Assembly: GCA_026692725.1 (NCBI GenBank)
Contig: JAPMUG010000002.1
Span: 62,001 to 126,000 of the forward strand
Direction: 5' to 3'
Source of the DNA: Ecytonucleospora hepatopenaei
Lineage: Eukaryota > Microsporidia > Enterocytozoonidae
Length of the DNA stretch: 64,000 bases
Of the stretch, positions 774 through 57,355 are shown piece by piece. Under the pieces are notes generated by a model that saw only the letters and a program-made list of their open reading frames with translations, made no database searches and was not told where the DNA came from. Position numbers and translations under genes: made by a program. The first letter of the stretch is position 1. Each line of letters begins with the position of its first letter.

Positions 774-2990
774 ATGTCAAAAGCAAACAGAACAGGTAAA
801 ACAACAAGTTTATTTGAGGACAGCAATATTTCATTAGAAGAAAGTACTTTAAAGTTAAATGGCACAGTTAAAAATAATTCAAAAATAAGCATAAAAGAAG
901 CTAAAAAAGAAAAAAATTCTAAAGAAAATTCAAGCAAAATTCACTTTCAGGATTTTAAGAAATGTGAAGCAAAAACAAAAAATGAAATTAATAACACACA
1001 AACTATAGATGCTATAGATGGTAAACTTGAGAATACTAAATGTGAAAGAGTGTTAAACAAACCTTCTGAATTAACCTTAAAATTATTAAACAATTTGTTT
1101 AATCCAAACAAACCCTCAAAGTATTTCTTACATGAAGTAGCATTAGAAGAATTTCAAGGTGATGTCTGTTTAGATGGAGATGTGGACATTTCATGTAATT
1201 TATCAGGAGAATCGCATAAAATATACAAAGAAATGGGTTCTTCCATTGCTAAGCAATTTTCACATGCATTGTTTTTGCTAAAATCTGAACAAAAGCAAGA
1301 AAAACCACTTTTGGAAATTTTTAAAGATAATTTAAAAAATATGGCATTGGGAATGGTTTTTGACGAGGATTTGGTAAAATCAGGAAGTTTTGGTAAATTT
1401 ATAATCGGAGAAGAAGAGCATAACATTCATTCTTTATCCAAAAAACTAAAACCTCATTTTCATGAAATTATAAAAGAAATATTAAAAAGAGGATTTATGT
1501 ACAGGAAAATAAAACTTACTTTTTTTGAGAAACATTCACTAACTATGAAAAAATTCTTAGAAGATGCCAAAGAATTAATTACTGCGTATGAAAAAAATGT
1601 TTTAGAATTAAATGACAATTTTTTGCATTTTGTTGCTAAATCTCATGTAAATGGAGTTAAGTTAGAAAAGGCATATTCTATTTTTATGGAAATTAAAGAA
1701 AGAAAGTTTATGGTTCCTAATACAAGCCAAAAAGAAAACAAATATTTTGTGTTTAAAGAAGTTTTGGGTAGTTTTAAATACCATGCAAAGGTAATAAGTA
1801 AAATTGCAATGGAATATATGGAAACGGGTCAGATAAACGATAGCTGTGAAGAATTTTTTATAAAAAACCATGTAGTTGATTATGGAATTGTTCCAGGCTA
1901 TGTACAAAATAGTATAGCAGAAAAGATATGTTATATTGGAAAATATATAGCGGTGTTAAAAGAAAATGGACATTATCTCGATAAAAATACTACAAACAAT
2001 ATAAAAGAGGAAACTGTATTGGATTTAACATTACCAACTTCTTTTGGAATTATAAACAAAATGCTTAAGAGTTTAAATGAATGTTTTAAAGATTTTATTT
2101 GCAATGATATAATGACAATGTACAATTTTATTAACAATTTATTTTTATTTAGAAGATGTGATTTTATGGATTTTTTATTTCAAGAATTTAAGGAAAATAG
2201 AAATTTGAATAAAAAAAGTATTTTATCAATAATTGAGGAAGGATTATTGCAAGTTAATCTTACGGATTCTGAATTGGCCACAATAGACATTAAGGCAGAT
2301 GTTGCAAATATCGAATTTAAAACAAAAAACTTTGATTTACCTGATCCCATCTTTTTAGAAGAACCTTTTGCACTTTTTTGCAAAATGAATGAAAAAATTA
2401 AAACTATTTATGATTTACCTGTAATTTCACACAAATTGACGGTCATTTTTAAATTTTTATGGAAATTAAAAAAGGTGGAAAATTTGAGCATAAGAATAAA
2501 ACATGATTTTATTTATAAGAGCAAATTCTCAAATAGTGATAATAAAGCCAAAAGTATCAATAGCATGATAAACAAAATAAATGTATTTGTAGGTTTATTT
2601 TTACAGTATGTTTATTATGAGGTAATCCACCCAAACAATTTAAATGTTGGATTTGATGCTAATGGATTGGTTTTAGATAATTTATCAAGTGATTTAAACA
2701 AAAAGCTAGATAATATTATTAAACATTTGTATTTAAATACAGATAGAAGGTTAATAGAACAAATTTTATGTAATTTTGAAGTGTTTTTTATTGGATTAGG
2801 AAATTTAAAGAGGAAAATTTACAGGGATACAGAGTATAATTCTTTTTTAGCAGAAGAAAACATACAAAAATCAGTTTCTGCGGTTTTTAAAGATTTAAAA
2901 GAATCTTTTGCGTGTTTTAATTCACTTTACCTCAAAGAAATAGAAAGTGGAAGTAGCCTCATTTCGTGTATAAACATGTTTTTATCATAA
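774..2990 (+). CDS. Gamma-tubulin complex component (Spc97/Spc98/GCP family)
   Basis: Family members bind gamma-tubulin and nucleate microtubules at the spindle pole body. Two GCP signatures are visible. The first, at about residues 345-360, is METGQINDSCEEFFI, which matches the 'G.I.D...EFFI' signature of the N-terminal GRIP domain. The second, at about residue 550, is KLTVIFKFLWKLKKVE, which matches the gamma-tubulin-binding GRIP2 region. A segment near residues 440-470 (FNNLFLFRRCDFMDFLFQE in outline) also fits the family. The product is about 738 aa, within the range of fungal Spc97/Spc98. The first ~80 residues are Lys/Asn/Ser-rich and probably disordered. I chose the ATG at 774 because a CCC signal directly precedes it. 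I cannot say whether this is the GCP2 or GCP3 type. Confidence 0.85.
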   Translation: MSKANRTGKTTSLFEDSNISLEESTLKLNGTVKNNSKISIKEAKKEKNSKENSSKIHFQDFKKCEAKTKNEINNTQTIDAIDGKLENTKCERVLNKPSELTLKLLNNLFNPNKPSKYFLHEVALEEFQGDVCLDGDVDISCNLSGESHKIYKEMGSSIAKQFSHALFLLKSEQKQEKPLLEIFKDNLKNMALGMVFDEDLVKSGSFGKFIIGEEEHNIHSLSKKLKPHFHEIIKEILKRGFMYRKIKLTFFEKHSLTMKKFLEDAKELITAYEKNVLELNDNFLHFVAKSHVNGVKLEKAYSIFMEIKERKFMVPNTSQKENKYFVFKEVLGSFKYHAKVISKIAMEYMETGQINDSCEEFFIKNHVVDYGIVPGYVQNSIAEKICYIGKYIAVLKENGHYLDKNTTNNIKEETVLDLTLPTSFGIINKMLKSLNECFKDFICNDIMTMYNFINNLFLFRRCDFMDFLFQEFKENRNLNKKSILSIIEEGLLQVNLTDSELATIDIKADVANIEFKTKNFDLPDPIFLEEPFALFCKMNEKIKTIYDLPVISHKLTVIFKFLWKLKKVENLSIRIKHDFIYKSKFSNSDNKAKSINSMINKINVFVGLFLQYVYYEVIHPNNLNVGFDANGLVLDNLSSDLNKKLDNIIKHLYLNTDRRLIEQILCNFEVFFIGLGNLKRKIYRDTEYNSFLAEENIQKSVSAVFKDLKESFACFNSLYLKEIESGSSLISCINMFLS

Positions 2991-5306: not shown

Positions 5307-5518
5307 AAAAAGGGGTTTTCTAAATAAAATTAAGCAAATAAATATTTTTATAAATTTATTTTAAAACTGATATTTTACTTGTTTTATTAATTAAATTCTA
5401 AATAAACATGCTTTTATTAATTCTAAACTCAGTATAACCTTGTTTAATGAAATGTTTGTCTTAAATTTATGCAATGAATTTCAGGTCAAAAATATTTTAC
5501 CCTTTTAAAATAAAAACA

Positions 5519-6619
5519 ATGCATGAGTCTTTGTATTCAGATAAAATTACTGTTTATAGCAGCAAAGGCGCCAGTGTTATGAAGGTTGACATCATAAAAC
5601 ACGAGACATACATTGAAATTCGGCTAATTGAAATAGAAAATATTTTTACTCTTTTTATATGCACAATTTCAGAAAGTGACTTTTATTTGTACAAAAAAGA
5701 ACAGGATATTTTAGTAAAGTATGATAGATTTGTACCAATTTTGGTAAATTTATTTTATAAGGTAAAAAACAATGTTGATTTGACAGCTAACATAATTAAC
5801 AAAAGCGATAAAGAATTGCGTTTGCAGTTTATAGAGCAAAATGAGTTTAGAAACATTGTAAAACTAGAACTTCCATTTCAAAAACCAGAAGAATTTCAGT
5901 ACAGAAAGTATTTAGGAGATTTACTGGGGAGAATGGAAAAGGACAATATTGCATTAATCAAGGAAAATAAAATTTTGAGGGAAAAAGCTATCAAAGGTGA
6001 CCAAGAAAAAAATAGCAAAATAAAGTATTTGGAAAGTGAAAATACAGAAATAAGAAAAAGACTAGAATTGATGAATGAGGAGTTAAATTCAATAGAAATG
6101 AAGTATAATGTTGAGAAAGAAGAATTTTATAGTGATAAGAATAAAATTTCAGAACTTGAAAAAATTAACACGCAGCTCAATTATGAGCTTGAAAACCTTA
6201 AAAAGGCAAATTACAGGGAAAAATACGAAGAAAAAGAAAAAGAGGCAAAAGACCACAGGATGAGAATACTTGAATTAGAGCATAAAAGTGAAAGCCTGAA
6301 CAGAGAACTTGAAGAAATGAAGAAGGAGAAAAGAAAACTGGAATATGATTTGGAAAGAGAGTTTGGTGCAAATTTGAACGCAGAAGAAATAAAATCTAAA
6401 CTTTCACATTTGGAGGGAAGAATTAAAACATATAAACAAGAGAATAGGGAAAAGAAGGAAAAAATAGAGCAACTTCAGAGTGAAAACAAAAGTCTTGTAA
6501 AAAAGTTGGAAAATGCACAAAATGTTTATAATCACTTTCTTAAGAGTAAAGTCGAAGATAATGACATAGATAATCTAGGAAATTATAGTTTTGAACCTGA
6601 AAATCCACATAACAAATAA
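5519..6619 (+). CDS. SAS-6-like protein (N-terminal head plus coiled coil)
   Basis: SAS-6 builds the centriolar cartwheel; its globular head dimerises and the coiled coil forms the spoke. Residues ~1-138 here follow the SAS-6 head: strands around YIEIRLIEIENIFTLF, then CTISESDFYLYKKEQDILV and FVPILVNLF, matching the conserved PISA region, then NEFRNIVKLEL. Phe110 sits at the position of the head-head interface Phe in the animal 'NPFKHLTHL' motif. Residues ~138-350 are a heptad-rich coiled coil with Glu/Lys dominance, and the tail is short and acidic. I prefer the ATG at 5519 (366 aa): ACCC lies 16 nt upstream and the N-terminus then aligns with animal SAS-6. An ATG at 5474 would add 15 residues. 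Other XRCC4/SAS-6 superfamily members (XLF, CCDC61, XRCC4) are alternatives. The superfamily call is firmer than strict SAS-6 orthology. Confidence 0.65.
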   Translation: MHESLYSDKITVYSSKGASVMKVDIIKHETYIEIRLIEIENIFTLFICTISESDFYLYKKEQDILVKYDRFVPILVNLFYKVKNNVDLTANIINKSDKELRLQFIEQNEFRNIVKLELPFQKPEEFQYRKYLGDLLGRMEKDNIALIKENKILREKAIKGDQEKNSKIKYLESENTEIRKRLELMNEELNSIEMKYNVEKEEFYSDKNKISELEKINTQLNYELENLKKANYREKYEEKEKEAKDHRMRILELEHKSESLNRELEEMKKEKRKLEYDLEREFGANLNAEEIKSKLSHLEGRIKTYKQENREKKEKIEQLQSENKSLVKKLENAQNVYNHFLKSKVEDNDIDNLGNYSFEPENPHNK

Positions 6620-9369: not shown

Positions 9370-9777
9370 ATGTTATTTTTTAATCTTGCATATAGCATTC
9401 GTTTAATATATAAATATGACAATACAGAAGGATGTGAACCATTAAAAAGAAACCAGATAATCCTTCAACCTGATCATGGAGAAGGAGCATATAAGGTAAC
9501 TGATATTTTAACAAATTATGAACTTCCTATTAATAGCTTGTGTATAATTTATCCTGATTTAATACAAGATTATATTAACAATGGTTTTGAAGCAAAAGAT
9601 GAATGTGGATATACAATTACAAAGTCAAATGGTGATGTTTTTACAGTGGTTTGTAGCAATACTGGTCCTAGTGAAATAGAAGAGGGAATTTTATCAAATC
9701 AATCAGAGGCATTAGAAATTTTGAATCAAATAGGCTTGTTTTTAAGCATTAAAAAGAAAAACACAACAGATGATTAA
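9370..9777 (+). CDS. Small putative secreted protein
   Basis: The product is about 135 aa and starts with a likely signal peptide (MLFFNLAYS, predicted cleavage near residue 9-10). The mature part is soluble and has three cysteines (in GCEP, LCII and ECGY) plus another in VVCSN, enough for two disulfides. It has no further membrane segment and the C-terminus is basic then acidic. I do not recognise the family. Secreted cysteine-bearing proteins of this size are common host-exposed proteins in microsporidia, but nothing here points to a specific role. Confidence 0.7.
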   Translation: MLFFNLAYSIRLIYKYDNTEGCEPLKRNQIILQPDHGEGAYKVTDILTNYELPINSLCIIYPDLIQDYINNGFEAKDECGYTITKSNGDVFTVVCSNTGPSEIEEGILSNQSEALEILNQIGLFLSIKKKNTTDD

Positions 9778-9983: not shown

Positions 9984-11027
9984 ATGAATAATAAAGTAAA
10001 TATAACTAAAAAACTTTTAAACATTAAGAATAAAAAAGTTTTAAACAGTAATAGTAAAATAGAAAACATTAAGAATAAAAAACAAGAAAACATTAATAAT
10101 AAAACAGTTTTAAATAATAATACTGAATGTATGTTTGAAAAAGTACTCAAAAAAAGATTAGAAGGAGGACAATTTAGAATGTTAAATGAAAAAATGTACA
10201 AAAACAAAGAATTAGATGCTGAACAAGTTGAAAGATACCATACATTCTATAGAAATCAAGTTAAGAAATGGCCTATTGATCCCAACACTATGGTTTTAAA
10301 GGAACTGGATGAAAAGTTGGTTAAGCTTAATTTTTTGCATAAAAATACAAAAATTAAAGTTGCAGATTTAGGGTGTGGGGATGTTTCAAAATATAAAAAT
10401 TACAAATTTACATGTAAAAATACAGAATTTGATTTTTATGATAAATATGTGATAGAAGACACAAATAGTGCAATTGGTAAAAAAGAAAATAAAGACATAA
10501 ATTATTTTAATCCTGTAATAAAATGTGATTTAACAGACATTAAAATAAAGAGCAATTCCTATGATGTTGTAATATGTTGTCTAAGTCTGATGATGGATGA
10601 TATTACAAATGTTATGGTTGAAATAAACAGAATATTAAAGATGGGTGGTATATTTATATTTGCAGAAGTAAGAAGTAGAATAAATAGTATTCATAATTTT
10701 GTTAATAAATTATGTAAGTATGGATATAAAGCAGAAAATGTTAATTCAAGTAACAAATATTTTACAATTATAAGAATGGTTAAAATAGAAGAAGTATATG
10801 ATTATACGAAGGAAAATATAAATAATACTGAAAATATTAGTGAAAATATAAATAATACTAATAATACTGAAAATATAAATAATATTAATAATACCAATAA
10901 TACTGAAGATAATATAAAAGAATGTAAAAAAAGTAAAAAGTCTTTGTTAATTTCCAAAGTAAAAAATTACATGAAAAAGAAAAACAATAGGTTAATTCTT
11001 AAAACATGCAATTATAAGAAAAGATGA
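9984..11027 (+). CDS. RRP8: Rrp8-like rRNA (adenine-N1) methyltransferase
   Basis: Rrp8 methylates N1 of an adenine in large-subunit rRNA in the nucleolus. The signature blocks appear in order: GGQFRMLNEKMY (about residues 62-73), YHTFYRNQVKKWP (about 84-96), the SAM-binding ADLGCGD (about 130-136), CDLTD, DVVICCLSLMMDDITN and GGIFIFAEVRSR. The N-terminus is an Asn/Lys-rich basic tail of the kind that targets nucleolar proteins. After residue ~265 comes a repetitive NINNTENINN tract, then a Lys-rich C-terminus (KNYMKKKNNR). The low-complexity tails mark the start of the AT-expanded block; the catalytic core is intact. CCC at 9948-9950 precedes the ATG by about 34 nt. Confidence 0.9.
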   Translation: MNNKVNITKKLLNIKNKKVLNSNSKIENIKNKKQENINNKTVLNNNTECMFEKVLKKRLEGGQFRMLNEKMYKNKELDAEQVERYHTFYRNQVKKWPIDPNTMVLKELDEKLVKLNFLHKNTKIKVADLGCGDVSKYKNYKFTCKNTEFDFYDKYVIEDTNSAIGKKENKDINYFNPVIKCDLTDIKIKSNSYDVVICCLSLMMDDITNVMVEINRILKMGGIFIFAEVRSRINSIHNFVNKLCKYGYKAENVNSSNKYFTIIRMVKIEEVYDYTKENINNTENISENINNTNNTENINNINNTNNTEDNIKECKKSKKSLLISKVKNYMKKKNNRLILKTCNYKKR

Positions 11028-11438
11028 TTGAAATAAATTAATTATTAAATAATGAATAAAATATAAATATATTAAATAATGTATATAATGTTAATATATT
11101 GAATAATTTATAAAATATAAATATATTAAATAATGAATAAAATATAAATATATTAAATAAAAAGAATATTTATTACTAAAAATATAAATATGTGTTATAT
11201 ATAAATATCAATAAATCAATATCAATTATTTGTTTTGACCCTTTTATTTTTTATTATTTGATATTATATATAATATACTATATAAGTAATTATATTTTAT
11301 TATTTGATATTATATATTTTATACTATATACTTTATATTTTATTATTTGATATTATACATAATATACTATATAATTAATTATATTTTATTATTTGATATT
11401 ATATATTTTATACTATATACTTTATATTTTATTATTTA
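11028..11438. repeat. AT-rich intergenic tandem repeats
   Basis: The first ~140 bp repeat an 'attaaataatgaataaa'-like unit. From about 11257 to 11430 a ~94-bp unit containing ATTATTTGATATTATA is present twice almost perfectly. A CCC at 11239-11241 (GACCCTTTT) precedes the duplicated block, so the expansion lies between the presumed start signal and the next ATG. No gene seen. Confidence 0.75.
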
Positions 11439-12572
11439 ATGTTTTGTTTTTATATTTTAAATAGTATTCTATGTATTAATAACATAAATAATGAAATAAA
11501 TAATGAAATTTTAAATTCAAGTAATAAAATTAAAATATGTAAAAATCAATTAATTACATGTTATACATTTGTTAGTAGAAATAAATCATTTTATTTATTA
11601 AATGGTTTAAAAGCTACATTAAGCCATAAAGATAAAATAACATACAAAGATGCTAGAAAAAATACGCTTAATTATTTTTACATGTTGACTATATTTTTAC
11701 TAAATAAAGATAGTAAAATTATATTAAATAAAGATAGTAAAATTATATTAAATAAAGATAGTAAAATTATATTAAATAAAGAACACAAAATTTTAAACTT
11801 AAAAAATAGCAATAGACTTTTACTTAAGGAAATAACATCATATGAAGATATAGCAAATATAACAAACAATAAAGATGAAATATATGATATATATGAGAGT
11901 ATAAAGTTAAGAGTGTTAGGTATAAAAGAAGGTAAAAATGATGAATTATATGATTTAACAGATAATATAAAATATAATAATATAACTGATTATAATATAA
12001 AATATAATGATTATAATATAAAATACAATAATACAAATTATAACAATAATAATATTTATTATGATATTAATATATTAAATAATAATAAACATTTTACCAT
12101 AAAAATAGAAAATATAGAAAAATTAAGAAAGTTTGAAATATTTAAATATATTTTAAATAATAAAAATAAAGAAATAAAATATAATATATTATATCAAACA
12201 ATAGTTAATAATAAATATAATAATAGTATTTTATTTAGTAAATGTGCATTTTATAGAAAAGAAGAATTAGAAGAATTTCTAAGTGATACTGAACAAAAAA
12301 CAATATGTTTTACATTTGAATTTATAAATATAAATGAAATAGAATGTATTGATATATTTAAACAATTAGATTATATAACTAAATATACAAAAGAAGAAAA
12401 TATAAATAATTCTGATAATACTACTAATACTGATATATGTAATAATACTAATAATAATAAGTTAAATATTAAAAATATTATTTTTATTATAATATGTATA
12501 ATATTATCAATATGTATTATATTTTATATAATATATAATTATAATAAAAAGAAAAGAAATATCAATAAATAA
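11439..12572 (+). CDS. Asn-rich putative type I membrane protein with LNKDSKII repeats
   Basis: The 377-aa product starts with a short hydrophobic signal-like segment (MFCFYILNSILC) and ends with one strong transmembrane helix (about 347-369, IIFIIICIILSICIIFYII) and a basic tail NKKKRN, so it is probably exported with a lumenal or extracellular body. A 24-bp unit repeated in near-perfect tandem at about 11699-11782 encodes LNKDSKII three times, followed by a partial fourth. The rest mixes ordinary sequence with poly-Asn/Tyr tracts. It shares layout, though not clear sequence, with the genes at 12879 and 19875, suggesting a local family of exported proteins. No enzyme motif is visible. Confidence 0.6.
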   Translation: MFCFYILNSILCINNINNEINNEILNSSNKIKICKNQLITCYTFVSRNKSFYLLNGLKATLSHKDKITYKDARKNTLNYFYMLTIFLLNKDSKIILNKDSKIILNKDSKIILNKEHKILNLKNSNRLLLKEITSYEDIANITNNKDEIYDIYESIKLRVLGIKEGKNDELYDLTDNIKYNNITDYNIKYNDYNIKYNNTNYNNNNIYYDINILNNNKHFTIKIENIEKLRKFEIFKYILNNKNKEIKYNILYQTIVNNKYNNSILFSKCAFYRKEELEEFLSDTEQKTICFTFEFININEIECIDIFKQLDYITKYTKEENINNSDNTTNTDICNNTNNNKLNIKNIIFIIICIILSICIIFYIIYNYNKKKRNINK

Positions 12573-12878
12573 AATATTATAATTATATATTTATACATTT
12601 ATACATTTATACATTTATATATTTATACATTTATATATTTATATATTTATATATTTATACATTTATATATTTATACATTTATATATATTAACTATTAGTT
12701 TTTGATCATTTTTTTATATATCAAAATATATTTTTTAAAAATATTTGATATAACCCTTAACAATATTTTATAATATTTTTATAATATAACTAATACTATA
12801 TAAATAATTAATAATCAATATTTTATAAATAATTAATATTTTAAAAAATATAAATAATTAATAATTAATATATTGTAT
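12573..12878. repeat. ATTTATACAT-type tandem repeat and start region
   Basis: Decamer repeats alternating ATTTATACAT and ATTTATATAT run from about 12590 to 12690. A CCC at 12754-12756 lies 123 nt before the next ATG, with further AT repeats between. No gene seen. Confidence 0.7.
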
Positions 12879-13949
12879 ATGTTTAATTTATATTTTAATT
12901 TATTATTATCTGATAATATGTTTAATATTTATAATATATTAAATAATGATAATATATTAAATAATACTACTGATGATATAGTTATATATAAAGATACAAC
13001 TATCAACTGTAATTTTACTATATATAAAGGTAGTAATATACCTAATGGATATAAAGTAGATATACCAGTGGAAATAACCAATAGTGATGTTAATTTACTG
13101 AAATATGATATGTATGTTAATTTTACAATAGATAAAGGCATAGCATATGGTGTAACACAGAATGGTGATAGCAACAAAATATTAGAAAAGAGAGCAATTA
13201 AAAATAAAATATTAGAGCATACAGCATATTTAGATATAGATAATATATTATTATATATTACATATAATACTAATACTAATACTAATAATAATACTAATAC
13301 TAATACTAATAATAATACTACTAATAAAATAATATTAACATGTTTTAGAAATAATACATATTATGATCCATATATTATATTAGGTGATAATATTAATTCT
13401 AATAATCAATATATGCTATTAACATATGAATTAAAAGGTTATAGTGCAAAACTATCACTATATCATTATTATAAAAAATTAAATTGTATGAGCTTATTTG
13501 ATTTGATCAAAGGCACAGCAGGAAAAGGCATAGAAGTATTAAATAGGGATGAATTGATGGGTATTACTATGTTAACTAGTGATGCACTGTTTAACTTACA
13601 AAAGAGTGAAAATAGTGATAGTTTCCATTATGAGTATACAGTAAAAATAACATTATTGGATGATATAATAGGGAAGGGGATATTAAGGGATGAAGAGACA
13701 TTTAAGAATAAAATAAGAAATAAAATAGGAGAGAATACAAATTATAATTTATATAATAATAGATTATACAATAATAGTAATTTATATAATACAGATTATA
13801 ATACTAAATATAATAATAAATATAATAATACAGATTATAACAATAATACTAATAAATATAAAATATTATTTATATCACTAATAAGTATTATAGGTATAAT
13901 AGGTATAATAATAATTATAAGTATGGTATATAAATATATGAAGAAATAA
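12879..13949 (+). CDS. Putative type I membrane protein, Asn/Thr-repeat insert
   Basis: The 356-aa product has an N-terminal hydrophobic segment (MFNLYFNLLLSDN), a lumenal-type body of about 290 residues and a C-terminal transmembrane helix (ILFISLISIIGIIGIIIIISMVY) with a KYMKK tail. A (TNTNNN)-type insertion lies near residues 130-150 and an NNRLYNNSNLYN-type repeat precedes the membrane helix. The body between them (for example VNFTIDKGIAYGVTQNGDSNK and LFDLIKGTAGKGIEVLNRDELMG) reads like folded sequence, possibly beta-rich. I do not recognise it. The start is the ATG at 12879, two codons after an in-frame TTG. Confidence 0.6.
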   Translation: MFNLYFNLLLSDNMFNIYNILNNDNILNNTTDDIVIYKDTTINCNFTIYKGSNIPNGYKVDIPVEITNSDVNLLKYDMYVNFTIDKGIAYGVTQNGDSNKILEKRAIKNKILEHTAYLDIDNILLYITYNTNTNTNNNTNTNTNNNTTNKIILTCFRNNTYYDPYIILGDNINSNNQYMLLTYELKGYSAKLSLYHYYKKLNCMSLFDLIKGTAGKGIEVLNRDELMGITMLTSDALFNLQKSENSDSFHYEYTVKITLLDDIIGKGILRDEETFKNKIRNKIGENTNYNLYNNRLYNNSNLYNTDYNTKYNNKYNNTDYNNNTNKYKILFISLISIIGIIGIIIIISMVYKYMKK

Positions 13950-14089
13950 AATATATATTAACTATTAGATATAATATCAATTTTATAAAATTTATCCCTT
14001 TAATTTAAAAATAATATAATAATATAATATAATAATAATATATAATATAATACGTAAAAAATAATATAATACGTAATATAATATATAAT

Positions 14090-14242
14090 ATGAATATATT
14101 ATTTAATATACTATTATATTTATTATGTAATATTAAATTGATAATAATATTATGTACTATATTAATAATTAGTATAATAAATATAATAATAGTAATATTA
14201 TTAAAGAAGAAGAAAGATAATATAAGGAATAGACATATATAA
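14090..14242 (+). CDS. Small 50-aa putative membrane protein
   Basis: A short ORF encodes an N-terminal hydrophobic segment (MNILFNILLYLLC), then a second strongly hydrophobic helix rich in Ile and a KKKKD basic end. A CCC at 13996-13998 lies ~92 nt upstream, the same spacing pattern as its neighbours. The long hydrophobic run could be a by-product of A/T bias (ATA/ATT/TTA codons), so this is a tentative gene. Confidence 0.4.
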   Translation: MNILFNILLYLLCNIKLIIILCTILIISIINIIIVILLKKKKDNIRNRHI

Positions 14243-14575
14243 ATAAATTATATTATAAATATATATATATATATTATTGTATTGTATTATTATAAATAAA
14301 TATATTATAATTTATGTCATATTATCATATTTTATGATATATGATATATGATATAAATGTATAAGTGATATATCATAAATATTTTATCCCTAATTTAAAT
14401 ATAATATAATAATATAATAATATAATAATATAATAATATAATAATATAATATATAATAATTAATAATATAATAATATAATAATATAATAATATAATAATA
14501 TAATAATAATATAATAATATAATAATATAATAATATAATAATAATATAATAATATAATAATATAATATAATATAT
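14243..14575. repeat. (ATAAT)n / (AAT)n microsatellite between CCC signal and next ATG
   Basis: ATGATAT repeats are followed by TTATCCC (CCC at 14388-14390), then about 170 bp of nearly pure ATAAT/AAT repeat up to the ATG at 14576. No gene seen. Confidence 0.8.
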
Positions 14576-15064
14576 ATGTATTGTTTTTTATATTGTATTT
14601 ATAATAGTCAAATAGATAATCAACATGAATATAATAATATGCCATATAATGTAAATAATAATAATATATATGATTATAATCATGAATATTATACTATAAA
14701 TGCATATGATGATATAAATGCATATGATGATATAAATGCATTTGATTGGGATTATACTGATAGTTTAGTAGAATGTACTGATAGTAGTATGGATTCAGAT
14801 ACATTATTAAATGATACAATAGTTAGTGGTAGTATAAAGAATGATAATACTGATAATACTGATAATGATATAATAGTTAATAATGATAATGATATAATAA
14901 ATGGTTATATAAGACATAATGATAATGATAATAGTAATATAATAAATGGATATATAAGACATAATGATAATATATTAAACAATTCTATTAATGGTTATAT
15001 TAGACATGATCAAGAAGATAATCATAATGATATAATAAATGGTTATATTAGACATAATAAATGA
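14576..15064 (+). CDS. Repeat protein with four INGYIRH(N/D) units, putatively secreted
   Basis: The 162-aa product begins with a short hydrophobic segment (MYCFLYCIYNS) that may be a weak signal peptide. It carries three NAYDDI/NAFDW-like repeats at about residues 41-57 and an acidic middle. The C-terminal third has four copies of INGYIRH(N/D) with variable Asn/Asp linkers of 9-13 residues, the last at the C-terminus. The conserved heptamer against degenerate linkers suggests selection on the repeat, for example as a binding or processing motif. No homologue recognised. Confidence 0.55.
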   Translation: MYCFLYCIYNSQIDNQHEYNNMPYNVNNNNIYDYNHEYYTINAYDDINAYDDINAFDWDYTDSLVECTDSSMDSDTLLNDTIVSGSIKNDNTDNTDNDIIVNNDNDIINGYIRHNDNDNSNIINGYIRHNDNILNNSINGYIRHDQEDNHNDIINGYIRHNK

Positions 15065-15155
15065 TAATAGTATACTAAATATTTATTAATCAATATATAT
15101 TATATTATATTATACTATATTATATTATAATCAATATATATTATATTATATTATA

Positions 15156-15665
15156 CTATACTATCTCATATATAAATCCTTTATTAAATTTCTTGGTCAC
15201 TATCCCTTCCTTTACTAATATCCCTAATATTGATATTGTCTTGTACTTTGATAGCTTTGCTATCTTTACTAGCTCATCCAGCATTACACTCTTTTTCTCT
15301 TGTAATGCATTATATAATAGTTTAGATGCTATTTTAACTTTTTTATTTTCATTACTAAAAAGAATATCAATATTGGTTATATTGTTAGTATTATTCTTTG
15401 TATTATTGTTAGTATTATTGTTTGTATTATTCTTTGTATTATTGTTTGTATTATTGTTTGTATTATTGTTTGTATTCTTTATATTATTAGTATTATTACT
15501 GTTACTTATATCTAATGTATATGTTTCTATTGATAATAAATATGCTTCTAACTTAGCATTAAATAACTTTAATTTATTAGTGCTATTTGTTAGTTTATTA
15601 ACCTTATGTTTTATACTTATACATATATTAAGTATATCATTTTGTAGAGTAGAAATAGTATTCAT
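15156..15665 (-). CDS. Hypothetical protein with poly-Asn/Thr insert
   Basis: The 169-aa product has two ordinary-looking parts separated by a NTNNNT tract (about residues 58-97). The N-terminal part is helical. The C-terminal ~60 residues (LDELVKIAKLSKYKTISILGILVKEGIVTKKFNKGFIYEI) have the rhythm of a winged helix-turn-helix: two helices, then a strand-turn-strand. That would fit a transcription or complex-assembly factor, but this is shape only. GGG at 15765-15767 on the plus strand would be the CCC signal for this minus-strand gene, 100 nt upstream. It is divergent from the gene at 15865. Confidence 0.55.
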   Translation of the reverse strand: MNTISTLQNDILNICISIKHKVNKLTNSTNKLKLFNAKLEAYLLSIETYTLDISNSNNTNNIKNTNNNTNNNTNNNTKNNTNNNTNNNTKNNTNNITNIDILFSNENKKVKIASKLLYNALQEKKSVMLDELVKIAKLSKYKTISILGILVKEGIVTKKFNKGFIYEIV

Positions 15666-15864
15666 AAATTAAATATTATATTTTATTGTTTATTGTTATA
15701 TTTTTATATTTTTATATATAATAAATTAGTTATATATTGTTATATTGTTATATTTCTTTTATATGGGTATAAAATTATATTATAAATATAACCCATACCT
15801 TAAAATAGATAATAAGTATATAATATATAATATATATAGGTATATAATATAATATATAATATAT

Positions 15865-16884
15865 ATGCAAAATACTAATAATACTACTAATAGATTGTTA
15901 CAAAATAAAAATAACAATATATTACCTAATAAAAATAAATTACCTAATAAAAATAAATTAAATGATATAAATAGTATAAACGATAATAATGATATAAATA
16001 CTAATGATATAACATCAATATGTAATAGTACTGATGACAACAAAGAAAATGTTAGTGAAATATTTTTGGAGGGAAAAAGCATAAAAGAAGATATAAGAAA
16101 TAAATCATTAGATATAGATGATAATATATTAAATAATAACAATAGTAATATAAATAGTATAGATGATATATTAAATAATAGTATAGATGATATATTAAAT
16201 AATAGTAATAATAGTGATATAAGTAATAACAGTGATATAGATATGATAGATGTATATTATACTAAATATGCAATAGATAGAGTAAAAGAAGAAGAGATAA
16301 TAAATAAGAAAAGAATAAATGATAATACTAATAATACTAATTTATTATATGATAATGCTAATAATACTAATTTATTATATGATAATACTGATAATACTAA
16401 TTTAATATATGATACTACTAATAATAACAATAATACTAATTTATTATATGATAATACTGATAATATATTAAATATATGTGATATAAATACTAATAATAAA
16501 TGTAATAAAATAAAAAATAAAATATTTAAATTAATATATGATGAAATATATAAAATAGAAGAGAGATATATAAATAGAATAAAAGAGTTAGAAGAAGAAA
16601 ATATAATATTAAGGAATAATACTGATAATAAATATTATACAAATAGTAAAGTATATGATAATACAAATAGTAAAGTATATGATAATAATAGTAATAATAC
16701 AAATAGTAAAGTATATGATAATAATATATTATATAATAATATAATTAATAAGGTAATATATGAAAATAACATATATCTTAATAAATATAAAGAAGTATAT
16801 AAGTATAAGGTATATGAGAGTGTAAAGAAATATTTAGAAGAGTGGAAAAAAGAAGCACAGGATAAAATAAATAAATATAAATAA
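15865..16884 (+). CDS. Hypothetical Asn-rich protein with C-terminal coiled coil
   Basis: The 339-aa product is dominated by Asn/Asp low complexity with tandem units (LPNKNK twice, NSIDDILN twice, NTNLLYDN about four times, NTNSKVYDN about three times). The non-repetitive parts are a short helix near YYTKYAIDRVKEEEIINKKR, a coiled-coil-like KIFKLIYDEIYKIEERYINRIKELEEENIILRN in outline, and a charged C-terminal helix (VYESVKKYLEEWKKEAQDKI). No signal peptide. A structural or complex-subunit role is possible; I do not recognise it. CCC at 15792-15794. Confidence 0.55.
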   Translation: MQNTNNTTNRLLQNKNNNILPNKNKLPNKNKLNDINSINDNNDINTNDITSICNSTDDNKENVSEIFLEGKSIKEDIRNKSLDIDDNILNNNNSNINSIDDILNNSIDDILNNSNNSDISNNSDIDMIDVYYTKYAIDRVKEEEIINKKRINDNTNNTNLLYDNANNTNLLYDNTDNTNLIYDTTNNNNNTNLLYDNTDNILNICDINTNNKCNKIKNKIFKLIYDEIYKIEERYINRIKELEEENIILRNNTDNKYYTNSKVYDNTNSKVYDNNSNNTNSKVYDNNILYNNIINKVIYENNIYLNKYKEVYKYKVYESVKKYLEEWKKEAQDKINKYK

Positions 16885-16993
16885 AATATTTTTATAACCC
16901 ATAAAATTTATAGTTAATAGTTTATATAATTTATAATATAATAATATAATAATATATATAAAACGTAGAATATAATATATAATATAATATAAT

Positions 16994-18535
16994 ATGTCTA
17001 ATTATAGTGAAAAGAAATTAATAAAAATAAAAAAAGATGTTAATAAAATAGCAAAAGAAATAGAAAATACATCAATATATAAAGAATATATAAATAATAC
17101 TAACAGTATATCAAATACTAATAATATATCAAATACTAATAATATATTAAATGATAGTAAAAAATATAAATCTAAATCATATAATACTAAAATATATTTT
17201 AATAAAAAGAAAGTATCATGTATAATTGATCATTTTAAAGATATATCATTAATAAAATATAAAAGTATAAAAGATAAAGAAAACAATACAATAAACAGTA
17301 ACAATATAAATAATACTGATATATTAAATAACAATATAAATAATTCTAATTATAATCTATTTGATGATAATAGATATGTATATTGTATTAAGAAGTTAAA
17401 ACTATTTCCTAATTATCACAATAAAGAATTATTAAAGAAGTATGAATTAGATAAGACAAAGGCATTAAGAGATAGGTGTATAAGGAATGAGGCAGAGGAG
17501 TTACCACGTAAGACATATAAAATAGTATATAATACTAACAATACTAATAATACTAACAATATATTATATGATAATACAAATAATAACAGTAATACATTAT
17601 ATGATAATAACAGTAATAATACAAATAACAGTAATATAAATAATACAAACAATAACATACATTATGATAGTGTAACAATAGAAATAGAATATGATAATAA
17701 TATAAACAGTAATATAAATAACAGTAAAAACATTGTCACCCTTAAGAAAGTTGATGCCATTGAATACTTTGAAATTGAATCCTACGACAGGAGTGAGTTT
17801 GAATATGCCGTCTATAAGTTTGGTGACGACATCACTACCATTGCCAGGTACATGGACATGCCTATCAAGAAGGCCATCCTCCTCTTCTACGTCTTCCACT
17901 TCCAGTTCAGGCTGACTGAGTCTCTCTGCGAGGTGGTGGCGGTGAGGGAGTGGTGCAAGGAAGACAGGGAGGTGTTTGCCGAGTGCTACAAAAAGTATGG
18001 GAACATGACGCTGAAGAACATCACCCCCGCCTATTTCAAGGACTACAAGACAGAGAAGGATTTAAGCTTATACTACTATTACCATAACAACCAGGTGATA
18101 AATAGCAAGTGGAGTAAAGAGGAGAGAGGGATATTTCAAGAATTATATAAGATATTTAGGAAGGATTGGGAGATGTATACAGATAGGGGTATAAGTATAA
18201 TTAACAGTAATATAAATAATAGTATAATACATAATAGTATAATACATAATAGTAATATAAATAACAATAACAGTATATATGATAATATATTATATGATAA
18301 TAATATAAATAACAGTATATATGATAATATTACATATAATACTATTAATAAAGATATTAGTGATATTAAATCATATTATAATAATTATTATAAAAGACTG
18401 AGCGATAAAGAATTAATTGATGATGAAAGTAGATTTACATATAGAATGGATATACCATTAATAGAAAAGATAGAAGAGAGATATAGTAAGTTAGATAGGA
18501 AGAAGAGAAAGAAGAAAGTAGAGGAAATAATATGA
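16994..18535 (+). CDS. SANT/Myb-domain protein, corepressor (Snt1/NCoR)-like
   Basis: The 513-aa product has a compact conserved region (about residues 245-400) inside Asn-rich sequence. It reads as consecutive SANT-type modules: FEYAVYKFGDDITTIARYMD..., then WCKEDREVFAECYKKYGNMTLKNI...KTEKDLSLYYYYHNN, then WSKEERGIFQELYKIFRKDWEMYTDRG. The 'LYYY.H' ending resembles the NCoR/SMRT/Snt1 SANT domain, which in yeast works in a histone deacetylase complex. A nuclear, chromatin-linked role is therefore likely; the exact orthologue is not secure. DNA at 17731-18130, over this region, switches to GC-rich codons while both flanks are almost pure A/T. The C-terminus is strongly basic (RKKRKKKVEEII). Confidence 0.6.
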   Translation: MSNYSEKKLIKIKKDVNKIAKEIENTSIYKEYINNTNSISNTNNISNTNNILNDSKKYKSKSYNTKIYFNKKKVSCIIDHFKDISLIKYKSIKDKENNTINSNNINNTDILNNNINNSNYNLFDDNRYVYCIKKLKLFPNYHNKELLKKYELDKTKALRDRCIRNEAEELPRKTYKIVYNTNNTNNTNNILYDNTNNNSNTLYDNNSNNTNNSNINNTNNNIHYDSVTIEIEYDNNINSNINNSKNIVTLKKVDAIEYFEIESYDRSEFEYAVYKFGDDITTIARYMDMPIKKAILLFYVFHFQFRLTESLCEVVAVREWCKEDREVFAECYKKYGNMTLKNITPAYFKDYKTEKDLSLYYYYHNNQVINSKWSKEERGIFQELYKIFRKDWEMYTDRGISIINSNINNSIIHNSIIHNSNINNNNSIYDNILYDNNINNSIYDNITYNTINKDISDIKSYYNNYYKRLSDKELIDDESRFTYRMDIPLIEKIEERYSKLDRKKRKKKVEEII

Positions 18536-18826
18536 TATAAATTTTATAAATTATATGATATATAGTATATTATAGTATATTATAATATGATATATATAGT
18601 ATGATTATAGTATTATAGTATTATAGTATATGATATAATAATATTTTACACCCTTATTAAATAAACATATAAACATATAAACATATTATACTATAAGAAC
18701 ATAATAATATATAATACTATAATACTATAATATAAACATATAATAATATAATAATATAATATATAATACTATAATACTATAATACTATATAATAATAATA
18801 TAACAATATAACAAACATATACTATA
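18536..18826. repeat. AT microsatellite-rich spacer with CCC signal
   Basis: Short ATAGTATT/ATAATACT-type repeats fill this spacer. A CCC at 18651-18653 lies ~174 nt before the ATG of the broken ORF at 18827. No gene seen. Confidence 0.6.
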
Positions 18827-19120
18827 ATGGCACCCTAACAAAGATATAAAAAGAAAATATTACATAATACTAATTGTACTACTACTGATAATATAAATAG
18901 TACAGTATATAATGATAATAATATAAATAGTACTAATACTAATGATAAATGTAATGAAAATACTACTAATAAATGTAATGATAATATAATATGTAATGAT
19001 AATACTACTAATAAATGTAATGATAATATAATATATAATGATAATAAATGTAAGAATAAAAATAAAATTATTAAGGTTATTAATAAAATAGGTAAAATGT
19101 TAAGAATATTTAAGAAATAA
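18827..19120 (+). pseudogene. ORF of ~98 codons interrupted by TAA at codon 4
   Basis: From the ATG at 18827 the frame reads Met-Ala-Pro and meets TAA (18836-18838), then stays open for 93 more codons to TAA at 19118-19120. The downstream part has a Lys-rich beginning, Asn/Thr/Asp repeats with regularly spaced cysteines (TNKCNDNII twice) and a basic amphipathic end (KIIKVINKIGKMLRIFKK). There is no other ATG in this frame until near the end. The CCC signal spacing matches neighbouring genes. It is either a gene inactivated by a point change, a readthrough case, a non-ATG start or a sequence error. No homologue recognised. Confidence 0.4.
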
Positions 19121-19303
19121 ATAAAATAGTAAAATATATTTTATACCCTTATTATATAAATAATTGTTAATTATAATATAATACATATAACAGTATAATA
19201 TAATATAATACATATAACAGTATAATATAATATAATACATATAATATAATACATATAATATAATACATATAATATAATACATTATTTATTGTAATATTTT
19301 TAT

Positions 19304-19543
19304 ATGCTTGGATTCTTTTCTATTTTCTATGCTCTTTTCCTTATGGCTAATGCCATTGTTGTCTTTGATGACAGGAGGGTGCTTACGCCTTTGAAACTGC
19401 CGCTGGGCAAGGAATACAGGGATAAAATGGGTGGAGTGAGACAGAGGATTGTTGAGTTAATATCAGCAGTAAGGACACTATTTGAATTGGCATTGTTAAT
19501 AATTAATATGTTTTGTGTATTATATGAAGTATTCTTTGGATAA
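19304..19543 (+). CDS. YOS1: Yos1/IER3IP1-like ER-Golgi membrane protein
   Basis: Yos1 works with Yip1/Yif1 in COPII vesicle transport from ER to Golgi. The 79-aa product has the family layout: an N-terminal hydrophobic helix (FSIFYALFLMANAIVVF), the conserved DDRRVL segment matching 'NA+AVL.EERFL', a short loop, then VRQRIVELISAVRTLFELALLIINMF and the C-terminal FG. Length matches Yos1 and human IER3IP1 (about 80 aa). Despite lying in an AT-expanded block it has no Asn insert, and its first ~100 bp of core use GC-rich codons. CCC at 19146-19148 lies ~155 nt upstream, with ACATATAAT repeats between. Confidence 0.88.
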   Translation: MLGFFSIFYALFLMANAIVVFDDRRVLTPLKLPLGKEYRDKMGGVRQRIVELISAVRTLFELALLIINMFCVLYEVFFG

Positions 19544-19874
19544 ATAAATATATAAATATATTACTATATTAATTTATAAATATATTACTATATTAATATA
19601 TATAAATATAATACTATATATAAATAAATAATATTATAATATTATAATATTATAATATTATAATATTATATAAAATTAACTTTTAACCTTAATTTATTTA
19701 TATTTAAGTTGATATAATAATATTACCCATCTATATAATACTTTATTAATATATACTTTATATAATATTTTATATTTATATTATAATACTTTATATAATA
19801 TTTTATATTTTATATTATATTATACTTTATTTATATTTTATTAATACTATTTATTATATAATATTAAGTTATAA
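19544..19874. other. AT-rich spacer with repeats and CCC signal
   Basis: This 331-bp spacer contains 'aatatataaatatattact' and 'ttataatat' repeats, a CCC at 19726-19728, and further TTTATATAATAT repeats up to the next ATG. No gene seen. Confidence 0.6.
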
Positions 19875-21530
19875 ATGTATTATATGATATATATGCTATA
19901 TCTATTTAAAATTATATTAAATAGTGAATTATGTTATGATTCTTTGTTTGTTAAAAATAAGGTTAAATATTTAAATAATGATTTTATGCTTAATGATAAA
20001 CAAATAAAACATACTAATACTACTACTAACACTACTAATACTGATATATATAATATAAATAATATACGTAATAACAATAATATAAATAATAATATAAGTA
20101 ATATAAATAATAACAATAATATAAATAATATAAGTAATAAATATAATTTAACTCTTATAGCTTTAAAAGAAAGAACATTAGAAGAAAAATTAAGAATTAT
20201 TAAGATATTAAAAAGAAATCAATATAAAATAAAAAATAATATAAATACTAATGATACTAATAACAAATGTAATGATGATTTTAATGTTAATGTCATAACT
20301 ACTAATGATAACAAAAGAATTAAAAAATTGATTGAATTATATAAAAATATAATAAATAGTGTTACATATGTAGATAGGAGAGAAATAGTAAGAATATGTG
20401 ATATAATAGAAAATATTACTAATACTGATAATAATATACAATATAATAATACTAATAATAACTTAAAATATGATAATACTAATAATAATATACAATATGA
20501 TAATGATAATAATATAAGTAATAATACTTTTAAATTAATATTGTTTAATATTTTAAATTATAAAGAAAATGATAATAAAACCATAAAATTAATAATTGAA
20601 CCTAAATATAATAAAATAGTGATTAGTGATGAAATATTAGAGAGTGATGATATTAATGATAATTTATTAATATCATGTAATATATCAAACTATAAATTTA
20701 CATTAATAATTGAAAAAATTATTAAAAATACTGCTAATACTAATAATATAACAGATAATACTAATAATATAACAGATAATACTAATAATATAACAAATAA
20801 TACTAATAATATAACAAATAATTTAACAGATAATAATTCTAATAATATTTTATTTAATAATCTTATTGAAATATGCTCTATCCGTGATTCTTTTCTAATT
20901 AACAATTTAAATGATACTCAAATTGACTGTTTAAATAGTGAAATGGTTAAAAACAACTGTAAAATGAAAGTTAAAATACATCCAGAAAAGAATGAAATTC
21001 TTATAAAAACACTAAATAAAGATAAGATTGAAAATAGCAGCAATTTAAAAAATACATCTAATAACAGTAATATTACTGATAATACTGATATTACTAATAA
21101 TGATAATAATGATAATACTGATAATAATTTACAAAATACTAATAATACTAATAATACTTGTTGTAGAGATCAAAAAGTAAAAAATGATAATATTTTATGT
21201 GAATGTAATATTAATGATAATTTACAAAATGATACTGATAATGATAATGATAATACTGATAATTTACAAAATGATACTGATAATGATAATGATAATACTG
21301 ATAATGATACTGATAATACTGATAATGATATAATTAGAGGTAAAGAATTTTCCTCTTTAATTAATGAAATTGTTAAATCTGATAATATTACATTTGATGA
21401 TAGTGTAAATTTTACTAATGAATTTATTAATGATAATAGTACTATAACACAGATGAGTAATGGTATAATATCAAATTGTTACATATCATATATTATAATA
21501 TTTATTACAATTATATTGGTGATATTTTAA
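19875..21530 (+). CDS. Large Asn/Asp-rich putative type I membrane protein
   Basis: The 551-aa product begins with a signal-like segment (MYYMIYMLYLFKIILNSELC) and ends with a transmembrane helix directly at the C-terminus (ISYIIIFITIILVIF), with no cytosolic tail, which would also suit a GPI-anchor signal. Between them, folded-looking segments (for example LIALKERTLEEKLRIIKILKRNQ, VTYVDRREIVRICDIIEN, LILFNILNYKENDNKTIKLIIEP) alternate with tandem low complexity: DNTNNIT about five times and QNDTDNDNDNTDN twice. Several cysteines lie outside the repeats. It shares its layout with the genes at 11439 and 12879. Unknown function, probably surface or secretory pathway. Confidence 0.6.
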   Translation: MYYMIYMLYLFKIILNSELCYDSLFVKNKVKYLNNDFMLNDKQIKHTNTTTNTTNTDIYNINNIRNNNNINNNISNINNNNNINNISNKYNLTLIALKERTLEEKLRIIKILKRNQYKIKNNINTNDTNNKCNDDFNVNVITTNDNKRIKKLIELYKNIINSVTYVDRREIVRICDIIENITNTDNNIQYNNTNNNLKYDNTNNNIQYDNDNNISNNTFKLILFNILNYKENDNKTIKLIIEPKYNKIVISDEILESDDINDNLLISCNISNYKFTLIIEKIIKNTANTNNITDNTNNITDNTNNITNNTNNITNNLTDNNSNNILFNNLIEICSIRDSFLINNLNDTQIDCLNSEMVKNNCKMKVKIHPEKNEILIKTLNKDKIENSSNLKNTSNNSNITDNTDITNNDNNDNTDNNLQNTNNTNNTCCRDQKVKNDNILCECNINDNLQNDTDNDNDNTDNLQNDTDNDNDNTDNDTDNTDNDIIRGKEFSSLINEIVKSDNITFDDSVNFTNEFINDNSTITQMSNGIISNCYISYIIIFITIILVIF

Positions 21531-21867
21531 TATATGATATATAATTACTATTTATTTAACAAATTAATTTAACTAAACTTAAAAACGAATTTATTTAAAA
21601 TATACCATAATATATTAGTTATAATTTATATAATAGTAAATAATATTATATAATAGTAAATAATATAATATAATATATAACTATATCTGATATATGTAAC
21701 AACTTATAATTATAATGCTGAGTATAATTTACAATTCAAATGGTAAATAATTTTAAAAATATTATACCCTTTATAATCAAATTTAAATAATCGATTTAGA
21801 TCATAAATATTTTAAAGAATAAAGTACATTGTTTAGTATTTTTGATAATAAAGTATATTAAAATAAA
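21531..21867. other. AT-rich spacer upstream of the 21868 gene
   Basis: This spacer contains a short tandem 'tataatagtaaataat' repeat near 21630-21670 and a CCC at 21767-21769 about 98 nt before the ATG. No gene seen. Confidence 0.55.
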
Positions 21868-22623
21868 ATGAATAAGAAAACATTAAGAAATATTATAATT
21901 GGTTCTATAATATTAGCATTAACTATTACTGGTATAGTTTTGGGTATTGTTTTTTATGATAAAAAAAGAAACAAAGACTCTCTTTATATGAGAGTTCGTT
22001 CTAATAATAAGCAAGAACTAGTTTTAAATGATTTTAAATGTTTTAAATTTGCATTGCATGGCTATGATGGATATAAAATTATAATAAGAAGAAATAATGA
22101 AACAATTACATATGGTGAGTTTTTAAATTTATTAGATGGTAAAGATATGGTAAAAATACTTAACTTCTGCATATATAATTATAACGCTTTTAATGCAGTT
22201 TATTTCGAAGCACCACCTGTTACGTACAATGAACTAAATAAAAAACCATTTGAATTTGTGATAATCAATGCACCTAGCTTATACAATATTACAGAAGATA
22301 AGCATGCTTTTAAAGACCATTTTAATGGCAATGATGTGGTTGCTTTTGACAGTTTGGGTGGAGATGCCAGACTTATTGTGCCTTGTCCTGTAAGTGGCTG
22401 TAATAAAAATACATTTGCACATTTAGCAAATTTTATCAGACATGCTAAAAAGAAGCAGATAGCAAGTTTTTGGTCTTTGGTTGGAAAGGAAATGAAAATA
22501 AAACTTAAAAAGGATAAAAATAAAAAAGTATGGATGTCAACCAGTGGGAATGGTGTATATTGGCTGCATCTGAGATTAGATGATAGGCCTAAATATTATA
22601 ATTATAAGGAATATACTAAATAA
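21868..22623 (+). CDS. Single-pass membrane protein with a domain shared with uncharacterised bacterial-type proteins
   Basis: The 251-aa product has an N-terminal signal-anchor helix (about residues 9-29, IIIGSIILALTITGIVLGIVF) and a folded domain of about 210 residues. Its C-terminal half carries distinctive blocks: FEFVIINAPSLYN, VVAFDSLGGDARLIVPCPV, FAHLANFIRHAKKKQIASFW, WMSTSGNGVYWLHLRLDDRPKYY. From memory these resemble an uncharacterised protein family (possibly DUF6940) found mainly in bacteria and some algae; I cannot check the name. If so, transfer from bacteria is possible. Unlike its neighbours to the left it has no Asn repeats. The gene just downstream looks like a shortened relative. 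Confidence 0.65.
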   Translation: MNKKTLRNIIIGSIILALTITGIVLGIVFYDKKRNKDSLYMRVRSNNKQELVLNDFKCFKFALHGYDGYKIIIRRNNETITYGEFLNLLDGKDMVKILNFCIYNYNAFNAVYFEAPPVTYNELNKKPFEFVIINAPSLYNITEDKHAFKDHFNGNDVVAFDSLGGDARLIVPCPVSGCNKNTFAHLANFIRHAKKKQIASFWSLVGKEMKIKLKKDKNKKVWMSTSGNGVYWLHLRLDDRPKYYNYKEYTK

Positions 22624-48275: not shown

Positions 48276-48461
48276 AATAATAACAAATATAATATTTTAT
48301 TAGCTATATATGTTACATTAATAAATAATTTATAATATATACTTTATAATATATAATATAATATAAATAAATATTTATAATCATATAATATATATAAATA
48401 TTTTTATAAAAAATTTAACCATATAAAATATAAATATATAAATATATAAATATAATATAAT

Positions 48462-49427
48462 ATGCTCTATATAATTGGTACTGGTCTCAATGATTATAAA
48501 GATATATCATTACGTACATTAGAAGTATTATTAACATGTGATGAAATATATTATGAATGTTATACATGTATACAAAATAAAGAATTTAATGAAATAGAAA
48601 AGTATATCAATAATATATTAAATAATAATACATCAAATAATACTAACAAATGCAATTTTAAGTTAGCTAATAGACAGCTAGTAGAAGATGAATGTGAAAT
48701 TGTACAAATAGCAAAAAATAAGAGAGTGGCATTTTTAGTAGCTGGCACTCCCTTCTTTGCCACCACCCACGTAGACCTGTTGCTCCGTGCCAAGGAGGAA
48801 GGAGTGGAGTATAAGGTAATCCACAACGTATCAATTAGCAACGTAATGGGGTGTTATGGGTTATATTCATATAATTTTGGTAGAACAGTATCAATATGTT
48901 TATATGAAAATGAAAATATAAATGAATATATAGAGAATAATATATGTAACAGTAATTTAAATAACAATATAAATAACAATATATATAACAATAATATAAA
49001 TAACAATATATATAACAGTAATTTAAATAACAGTAATATTACTAATAATATATGTAACAGTAATTTAAATATTAATACTGATAATCTACCATTATCCTTC
49101 TATGATAATATTTATAATAATTATATAAATAACTTACATACATTATGCCTATTAGACATAAAAACAGACAGAGAATACTTTATGGATGCAAATAGAGCCA
49201 TAGCACAGATACTGCTGGCTGAGGAAGTAAGGCAGTATGGGATGGTAGACTACGACACAAAGCTACTGGTGGTGTGTAGGTTTGCAACAGACACAGAAAG
49301 GACATACTACGACAGTGTAAGGAATTTACTAAGGAAGGAATATGGGAAGCCATTGCACTCATTGATAATATTAGGGAAAGGGACATCAGTAATAGAAAAA
49401 GAGTTTATAGAAAAGATATTTGAATGA
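48462..49427 (+). CDS. DPH5: Diphthine synthase (diphthamide methyltransferase)
   Basis: DPH5 methylates the 3-amino-3-carboxypropyl group on the eEF2 histidine, a step to diphthamide. The family blocks are clear: MLYIIGTGLNDYKDISLRTLEVL at the N-terminus, a 'YTC' following it, VAGTPFFATTHVDLLLRAKEEGVEYKVIHNVSISN (about 96-130), LYSYNFGRTVSICLY, and LHTLCLLDIKTDREYFM (about 226-242). A run of NNNINNNIYNN (about 160-205) is inserted in a loop before the last block. The conserved blocks at 48740-48850 and 49180-49360 use GC-rich codons, while the insert is pure A/T. Its substrate eEF2 is encoded at 39781-42342. AAATTTAACC lies ~40 nt upstream. Confidence 0.92.
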   Translation: MLYIIGTGLNDYKDISLRTLEVLLTCDEIYYECYTCIQNKEFNEIEKYINNILNNNTSNNTNKCNFKLANRQLVEDECEIVQIAKNKRVAFLVAGTPFFATTHVDLLLRAKEEGVEYKVIHNVSISNVMGCYGLYSYNFGRTVSICLYENENINEYIENNICNSNLNNNINNNIYNNNINNNIYNSNLNNSNITNNICNSNLNINTDNLPLSFYDNIYNNYINNLHTLCLLDIKTDREYFMDANRAIAQILLAEEVRQYGMVDYDTKLLVVCRFATDTERTYYDSVRNLLRKEYGKPLHSLIILGKGTSVIEKEFIEKIFE

Positions 49428-49519
49428 ATAAATATTATATTATATTTAATATTAAATTATTTATAATATAACAAATATTAAATTATTTATAATATAACAA
49501 GTATTAAATATTAAATTAT

Positions 49520-57179: not shown

Positions 57180-57355
57180 ATAAACTATACTATAAATATA
57201 CTATTTAATAAATAAAATATATTATAAATATAAATATAATATTTAATATACTATATAAATATAAAATAATATAAATATAAATATAAATATACTATATAAA
57301 TAAACTTATTATAAATATAATATAATTATAATATAAATATATAATAATATACTAT

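Follow-up and report, generated by a model that had tools for sequence, protein, structure and literature searches.

The SAS-6 gene and its relatives

The window described here, a stretch of 64,000 nucleotides of Ecytonucleospora hepatopenaei (contig JAPMUG010000002.1, positions 62,001 to 126,000), carries at 5519–6619 of its forward strand an open frame of 366 codons followed by a stop, which almost certainly encodes the orthologous, vertically inherited SAS-6 of a microsporidian. The protein starts with a SAS-6 head, continues into a long predicted coiled coil, and ends with a short tail (Table 1). The probability of an open frame of this length, computed for independent bases at the composition of the window (24.6% G+C), is about 5e-16, ruling out a chance frame.

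Table 1. Features of the SAS-6 gene and of its surroundings (positions in the window)
Feature	Position	Strand	Evidence
SAS-6 coding sequence, 366 aa	5519..6619	+	open frame; Pfam SAS-6_N, E 3.9e-21; 58 further homologues
SAS-6 head domain, residues 1–121	5519..5881	+	
α1–α2 linker, residues 61–71, corresponding to the pocket rim in the head dimer	5699..5731	+	alignment with SAS-6 chains
β6–β7 hairpin, residues 104–118, counterpart of the loop entering the partner head	5828..5872	+	strands 99–107 and 112–121
F110 codon, head-dimer phenylalanine	5846..5848	+	conservation, alignment
Coiled coil, residues 125–338, about 32 nm if continuous	5891..6532	+	predicted helices
Conserved helix end with VYxHF motif, residues 326–342	6494..6544	+	entropy
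Tail motif, residues 356–363, PENP here, PESP in most homologues	6584..6607	+	column counts
CCC element, 5' of the SAS-6 start codon	5500..5502	+	sequence reading
Gamma-tubulin complex component	774..2990	+	Pfam GCP_N, E 1.2e-9; GCP_C, E 2.3e-7, same frame

Of this start and an alternative in-frame ATG located upstream (5474), the former is favoured because the methionine encoded there is aligned with the first residue of most SAS-6 homologues, and because the CCC element precedes the start at 5519 by 16 bases, whereas no CCC precedes the ATG at 5474. We take a CCC before the start codon to be an upstream element; five of the six genes inspected have one no more than 40 bases from their start, with the HECT gene being the exception.

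The N-terminal head domain of SAS-6, with its PISA region, is present, as the Pfam profile SAS-6_N covers residues 18–120 at 76 bits (cut-off 25). In the predicted model, the head fold and the direction of the stalk leaving it match those seen in SAS-6 structures, and sequence comparison places the protein closer to SAS-6 of zebrafish (E 4.3e-13) than to that of C. elegans (E 1.1e-3). Profile, fold, and tree thus agree with the original prediction, in which the frame had been read as SAS-6-like.

At least 59 proteins among the matches listed, the window's own included, carry a SAS-6 domain of the microsporidian type. Two weak coiled-coil matches with no SAS-6 domain (P0060 and P0061) were dropped from the homologue set, as was P0058, a fragment of 178 residues belonging to the 59, and conservation is therefore counted on 58 proteins. 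Fourteen named species, all of which we take to be microsporidia, are represented in the genera Nucleospora, Enterospora, Glugoides, Hepatospora, Enteropsectra, Pancytospora, Encephalitozoon (two species), Ordospora, Nosema (two), Gurleya, Astathelohania, and Dictyocoela. In a tree of 45 heads, 27 of the 59 are split from 18 other proteins by a branch with support values of 100/97; the latter come from green algae, two spiders, zebrafish, and unnamed sources, with none known as chytrid, Rozella, or SAS6L. The tree is rooted at its midpoint and carries a long-branch warning that extends to the branch separating the two groups. Vertical inheritance of the microsporidian SAS-6 is the simple reading of these sequences. 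The original prediction had proposed a search for orthologues in other microsporidia and in Rozella. The former were found, in at least the 14 species named above; none of the matches listed, which were limited in length and number and of which many are unnamed, bears the name of Rozella or of a chytrid.

The genome searched comprises about 3.09 Mb in 13 contigs and contains four full-length matches to a microsporidian small-subunit ribosomal RNA model, at 1186.6 bits each. The same model also scores above its cut-off in 9 of 14 controls from prokaryotes, so that microsporidian origin is indicated more strongly by how close the protein homologues are. Host contamination is ruled out, as the SAS-6 head of the window falls within sets of microsporidian proteins in the tree.

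SAS-6 has reportedly been identified and localised in Nosema bombycis, going by the title of a 2019 study by Dai et al. Public records carry the name SAS-6 in several microsporidian genera, and in a 2013 paper the protein is listed in Encephalitozoon cuniculi "as previously described" (PMC3697468). These records contradict the view, expressed in the original prediction, that microsporidia are usually considered to have lost SAS-6, and its presence, being already described in print, is not news; in the passages of PMC13358043 that were consulted, SAS-6 is not mentioned. The present analysis adds the set of at least 59 proteins, the conservation of F110, and the C-terminal VYxHF/PESP pattern, with no claim that this motif is unpublished, as the literature search was not aimed at it.

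Contact residues, stalk, and tail

In SAS-6 of C. elegans, a pocket formed by α1, α2, and β7 receives the β6–β7 loop, which has a single hydrophobic residue at its tip, and this mode of head contact is described as highly conserved (PMC7939395). The loop of the window protein also has a hydrophobic tip, with F110 located in the predicted structure at the turn that joins the two strands of the hairpin. This residue is aligned with F131 of zebrafish (Danio) and F145 of Chlamydomonas (numbers taken from PMC7939395 and from the titles of structure entries) and is a phenylalanine in all 58 proteins, in agreement with the interface position originally assigned to it. V66 and F71 are likewise invariant in the 58 microsporidian-type proteins, the window's own among them. 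The mean entropy is 0.81 bits in both the linker and the hairpin, compared to 1.44 bits for the whole head. Outside of microsporidia, position 110 is occupied by phenylalanine in 17 of the 18 aligned proteins and by valine in one (P0075 in this set being a fragment of P0064).

An acidic residue at position 63 and a basic one at position 111 are found together in 55 of the 58 proteins, whereas in the 18 others position 63 is glycine (12), glutamate (5), or glutamine (1). Judging from the sequence, D63 and R111 could form a salt bridge in the window protein. An engineered variant of the Chlamydomonas protein that carries G94D and K146R at the equivalent positions, together with two more changes, has been crystallised, according to the title of its entry.

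The coiled coil expected from the original prediction follows immediately after the head, in the form of predicted helices 125–281 and 289–338, interrupted by a region of low confidence at 282–287; model confidence drops past about residue 220 and is low from residue 340 onward. The computed length of this 214-residue stalk falls, if the coil is continuous, within the 30–50 nm given for SAS-6 coiled coils (PMC7939395). In four segments of the stalk, 50–80% of the a and d positions are hydrophobic in the best heptad register, as compared to 27–36% overall, the fraction being biased upward by the choice of the best of seven registers. The helical stalk would pair as a coiled-coil dimer. Similarity to the SMC and Rad50 families of NCBIfam was dismissed, as it is confined to the coiled coil, with scores far below the cut-offs.

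Most of the stalk is variable (residues 157–325, 2.22 bits), whereas its start is better conserved (residues 123–156, 1.05 bits). Its end, residues 326–342, is the 17-residue segment of lowest entropy between positions 123 and 342 (0.84 bits), nearly equalled by the one starting at position 134 (0.88 bits). The VYxHF motif in this region includes Y337, a tyrosine in 58/58 proteins, as well as H339 and F340, each conserved in 57/58. The tail motif that follows is kept in most of the proteins, with P360 and E361 in 56/58 each, P363 in 52/58, and serine at position 362 in 48/58; the window protein has asparagine there.

A pattern Y-x-H/Y-F/I is present within the last 30% of 58 of the 59 microsporidian-type proteins, missing only from the fragment P0058. 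A slightly different pattern, V/M-Y-x-H/Y-F/I, searched for anywhere in 36 other SAS-6 proteins, was found in none of them (16 of these have at least 470 residues, and the rest may lack the C-terminal end), nor was a motif of the VYxHF type found in those tails of other SAS-6 that were examined. A long unstructured C-terminal extension is counted as a part of the SAS-6 architecture (PMC7939395). Being an accessory and variable feature, it has no bearing on the assignment; in the window protein, only 28 residues follow the helix. The conserved C-terminal motif provides a concrete handle for a partner search.

Neighbouring genes

The gamma-tubulin complex gene noted originally upstream of SAS-6 is real, with both of its Pfam families in one frame, and is separated from SAS-6 by a gene for a mechanosensitive channel. 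It is the sole gamma-tubulin complex gene that emerged from a search of the genome with GCP_C, by which a second, diverged subunit may be missed. Genome searches also yielded three matches to tubulin and five to EF-hand proteins, and among the latter the frames at L010 and L012 were read. L010, compared as a candidate centrin, is better matched by myosin light chains and calmodulins than by centrin.

Two parts of the window, at about 10000–22000 and 48000–58000, are very A+T-rich (G+C 14–20% in 4-kb windows) and hold frames with long asparagine-rich inserts, such as a TP_methylase protein (48462) and a Myb-like frame (16994, below the Pfam cut-off). Such inserts are not found in the SAS-6, gamma-tubulin complex, guanylate kinase, and HECT frames. 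A frame of 1890 residues on the reverse strand (49520–55192) contains two RNase III stretches (Pfam Ribonuclease_3, E 1.9e-26) and looks like a Dicer-type protein with asparagine-rich inserts, possibly a gene of RNA interference; neither a helicase nor a PAZ family is listed for it in the Pfam scan. Also on the reverse strand, 60663–61616 encodes a Forkhead-domain protein (Pfam, E 1.2e-31) with an asparagine-rich N-terminal part. The most G+C-rich part of the window (42%) encodes on the forward strand (43878–48275) a protein of 1465 residues with a hydrophobic start, an asparagine-rich end, and no Pfam match, which by eye resembles polar tube protein 3. Three more forward frames (9370–9777, 11439–12572, and 12879–13949) have hydrophobic starts, and the last two also end hydrophobically, as judged by eye.

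Possible function and comparison with known systems

The ninefold hub of centrioles is established by SAS-6, which is usually regarded as tied to them. To our knowledge, no centriole has been described in microsporidia, and the role of SAS-6 in such a group is a real puzzle. Since the protein and its contact residues have been retained throughout microsporidia, whose genomes are tiny and whose cells have no described centrioles, it may well work outside of that organelle, which makes the group a natural test of what a SAS-6 scaffold can achieve alone.

While the identity of the protein, its head fold, and the conservation of its contact residues and tail are established computationally, its dimerisation and oligomerisation are inferred. 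We favour, with moderate confidence, a scaffold of head-docking SAS-6 homodimers that serves the spindle plaque and has a partner bound to its tail. SAS-6 would form a parallel coiled-coil homodimer, the two heads of which would attach to further dimers by way of F110 and the pocket opposite, yielding small rings, arcs, or stacks. Such a scaffold could build or duplicate the spindle plaque, the equivalent of the spindle pole body, in the nuclear envelope without centrioles, and the conserved final part of the coiled coil with the PESP tail might hold a microsporidia-specific partner. The placement at the plaque, a weaker inference than the scaffold itself, has about an even chance of being correct. 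In E. cuniculi, mitosis is closed and involves spindle pole bodies, and for the TTK kinase a main role in duplicating the spindle poles has been proposed (PMC2078597).

Several observations weigh against this explanation. In a single-sequence search of solved chains, the best match is no better than E 8.9e-4, and glutamate receptors, which are unrelated, turn up from E 1 onward. The model of a monomer does not demonstrate an oligomer. The vicinity of the gamma-tubulin complex gene may be due to chance. Centriole-less fungi build spindle pole bodies without SAS-6, so that a plaque does not in itself depend on this protein. Other SAS-6 proteins bind head to head weakly (Kd 50–100 μM, PMC7939395), and the link to TTK may fail near this genome, since the kinase is reported as lost in Enterocytozoon bieneusi (PMC4280135).

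A more specific form of the proposal is tentative: a repurposed cartwheel subunit would scaffold the acentriolar spindle plaque, with its head contact reinforced by D63–R111 and with VYxHF and PESP serving as a hook for a partner found only in microsporidia. If true, a microtubule centre could be organised by SAS-6 even where the other parts of the centriole are missing.

Alternatively, SAS-6 might still form a cartwheel-like ninefold hub, in a hidden or transient remnant of a centriole devoid of microtubule walls. The invariance of F110, V66, and F71, the direction of the stalk, and its length would all suit such a hub, but the reading is unlikely, no centriole being described in the group. 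Weak profile searches of the genome gave no match to Tcp10_C (SAS-4/CPAP), STIL_N, or POLO_box. These searches, negative also for PACT, missed the window's own GCP_N, and the Polo boxes of E. cuniculi are called too degenerate to be recognised through Pfam (PMC2078597); thus no conclusion is drawn about the loss of SAS-4, STIL, or PLK4. Polo-family kinases are reported in microsporidian kinomes (PMC2078597, PMC4280135).

A transfer of SAS-6 to the polar tube or polaroplast of the invasion apparatus, resembling that of SAS6L (SAS-6-like) to the conoid of Toxoplasma, the subject of PMC3697468, is rather improbable. The head is matched by chains of a Toxoplasma conoid fibre structure (9y9z), one of which is named as a SAS-6 N-terminal-domain protein, but the window protein has the SAS-6 architecture with a coiled coil, unlike SAS6L. 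That it is itself a SAS6L is highly improbable. The two have the head domain in common, and SAS6L is matched at E 2.8e-4, more weakly than most SAS-6, although better than SAS-6 of C. elegans; SAS6L has no coiled-coil tail (PMC3697468), in contrast to the 214-residue helical stalk predicted here. A head of the XRCC4, XLF, PAXX, or CCDC61 type, the first, second, and fourth of which the original prediction had named for comparison, can be set aside, as these proteins share the head-and-stalk fold, but none of them matches better than SAS-6 by profile or fold, and no Pfam family of theirs is listed at E ≤1.

The SAS-6 identified here shares its head fold, the coiled coil behind it, and the head-dimer phenylalanine with canonical SAS-6 (Danio, Chlamydomonas Bld12, Leishmania, Drosophila, and human). 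Unlike those, it is predicted to have no long unstructured tail, and it is shorter, with 366 residues as against 470–671 in the non-microsporidian proteins, counting the 16 that reach 470 residues, lengths that are limited by the search. The C-terminal motif is a feature of the microsporidian proteins as opposed to the canonical ones examined. With other microsporidian SAS-6, the protein shares head, coiled coil, and this motif. Among the matches listed, the closest named homologue is "Sas-6" of Nucleospora cyclopteri (58% identity), with another homologue reaching 68%; the identity with "SAS6" of Hepatospora eriocheir is 44% and with the E. cuniculi protein 37%, in all three named cases over nearly the whole length. 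The 59 proteins have 355–385 residues, except for P0035 (312, with a short start) and P0058, and the window protein differs from most of them in its tail, which reads PENP where serine prevails.
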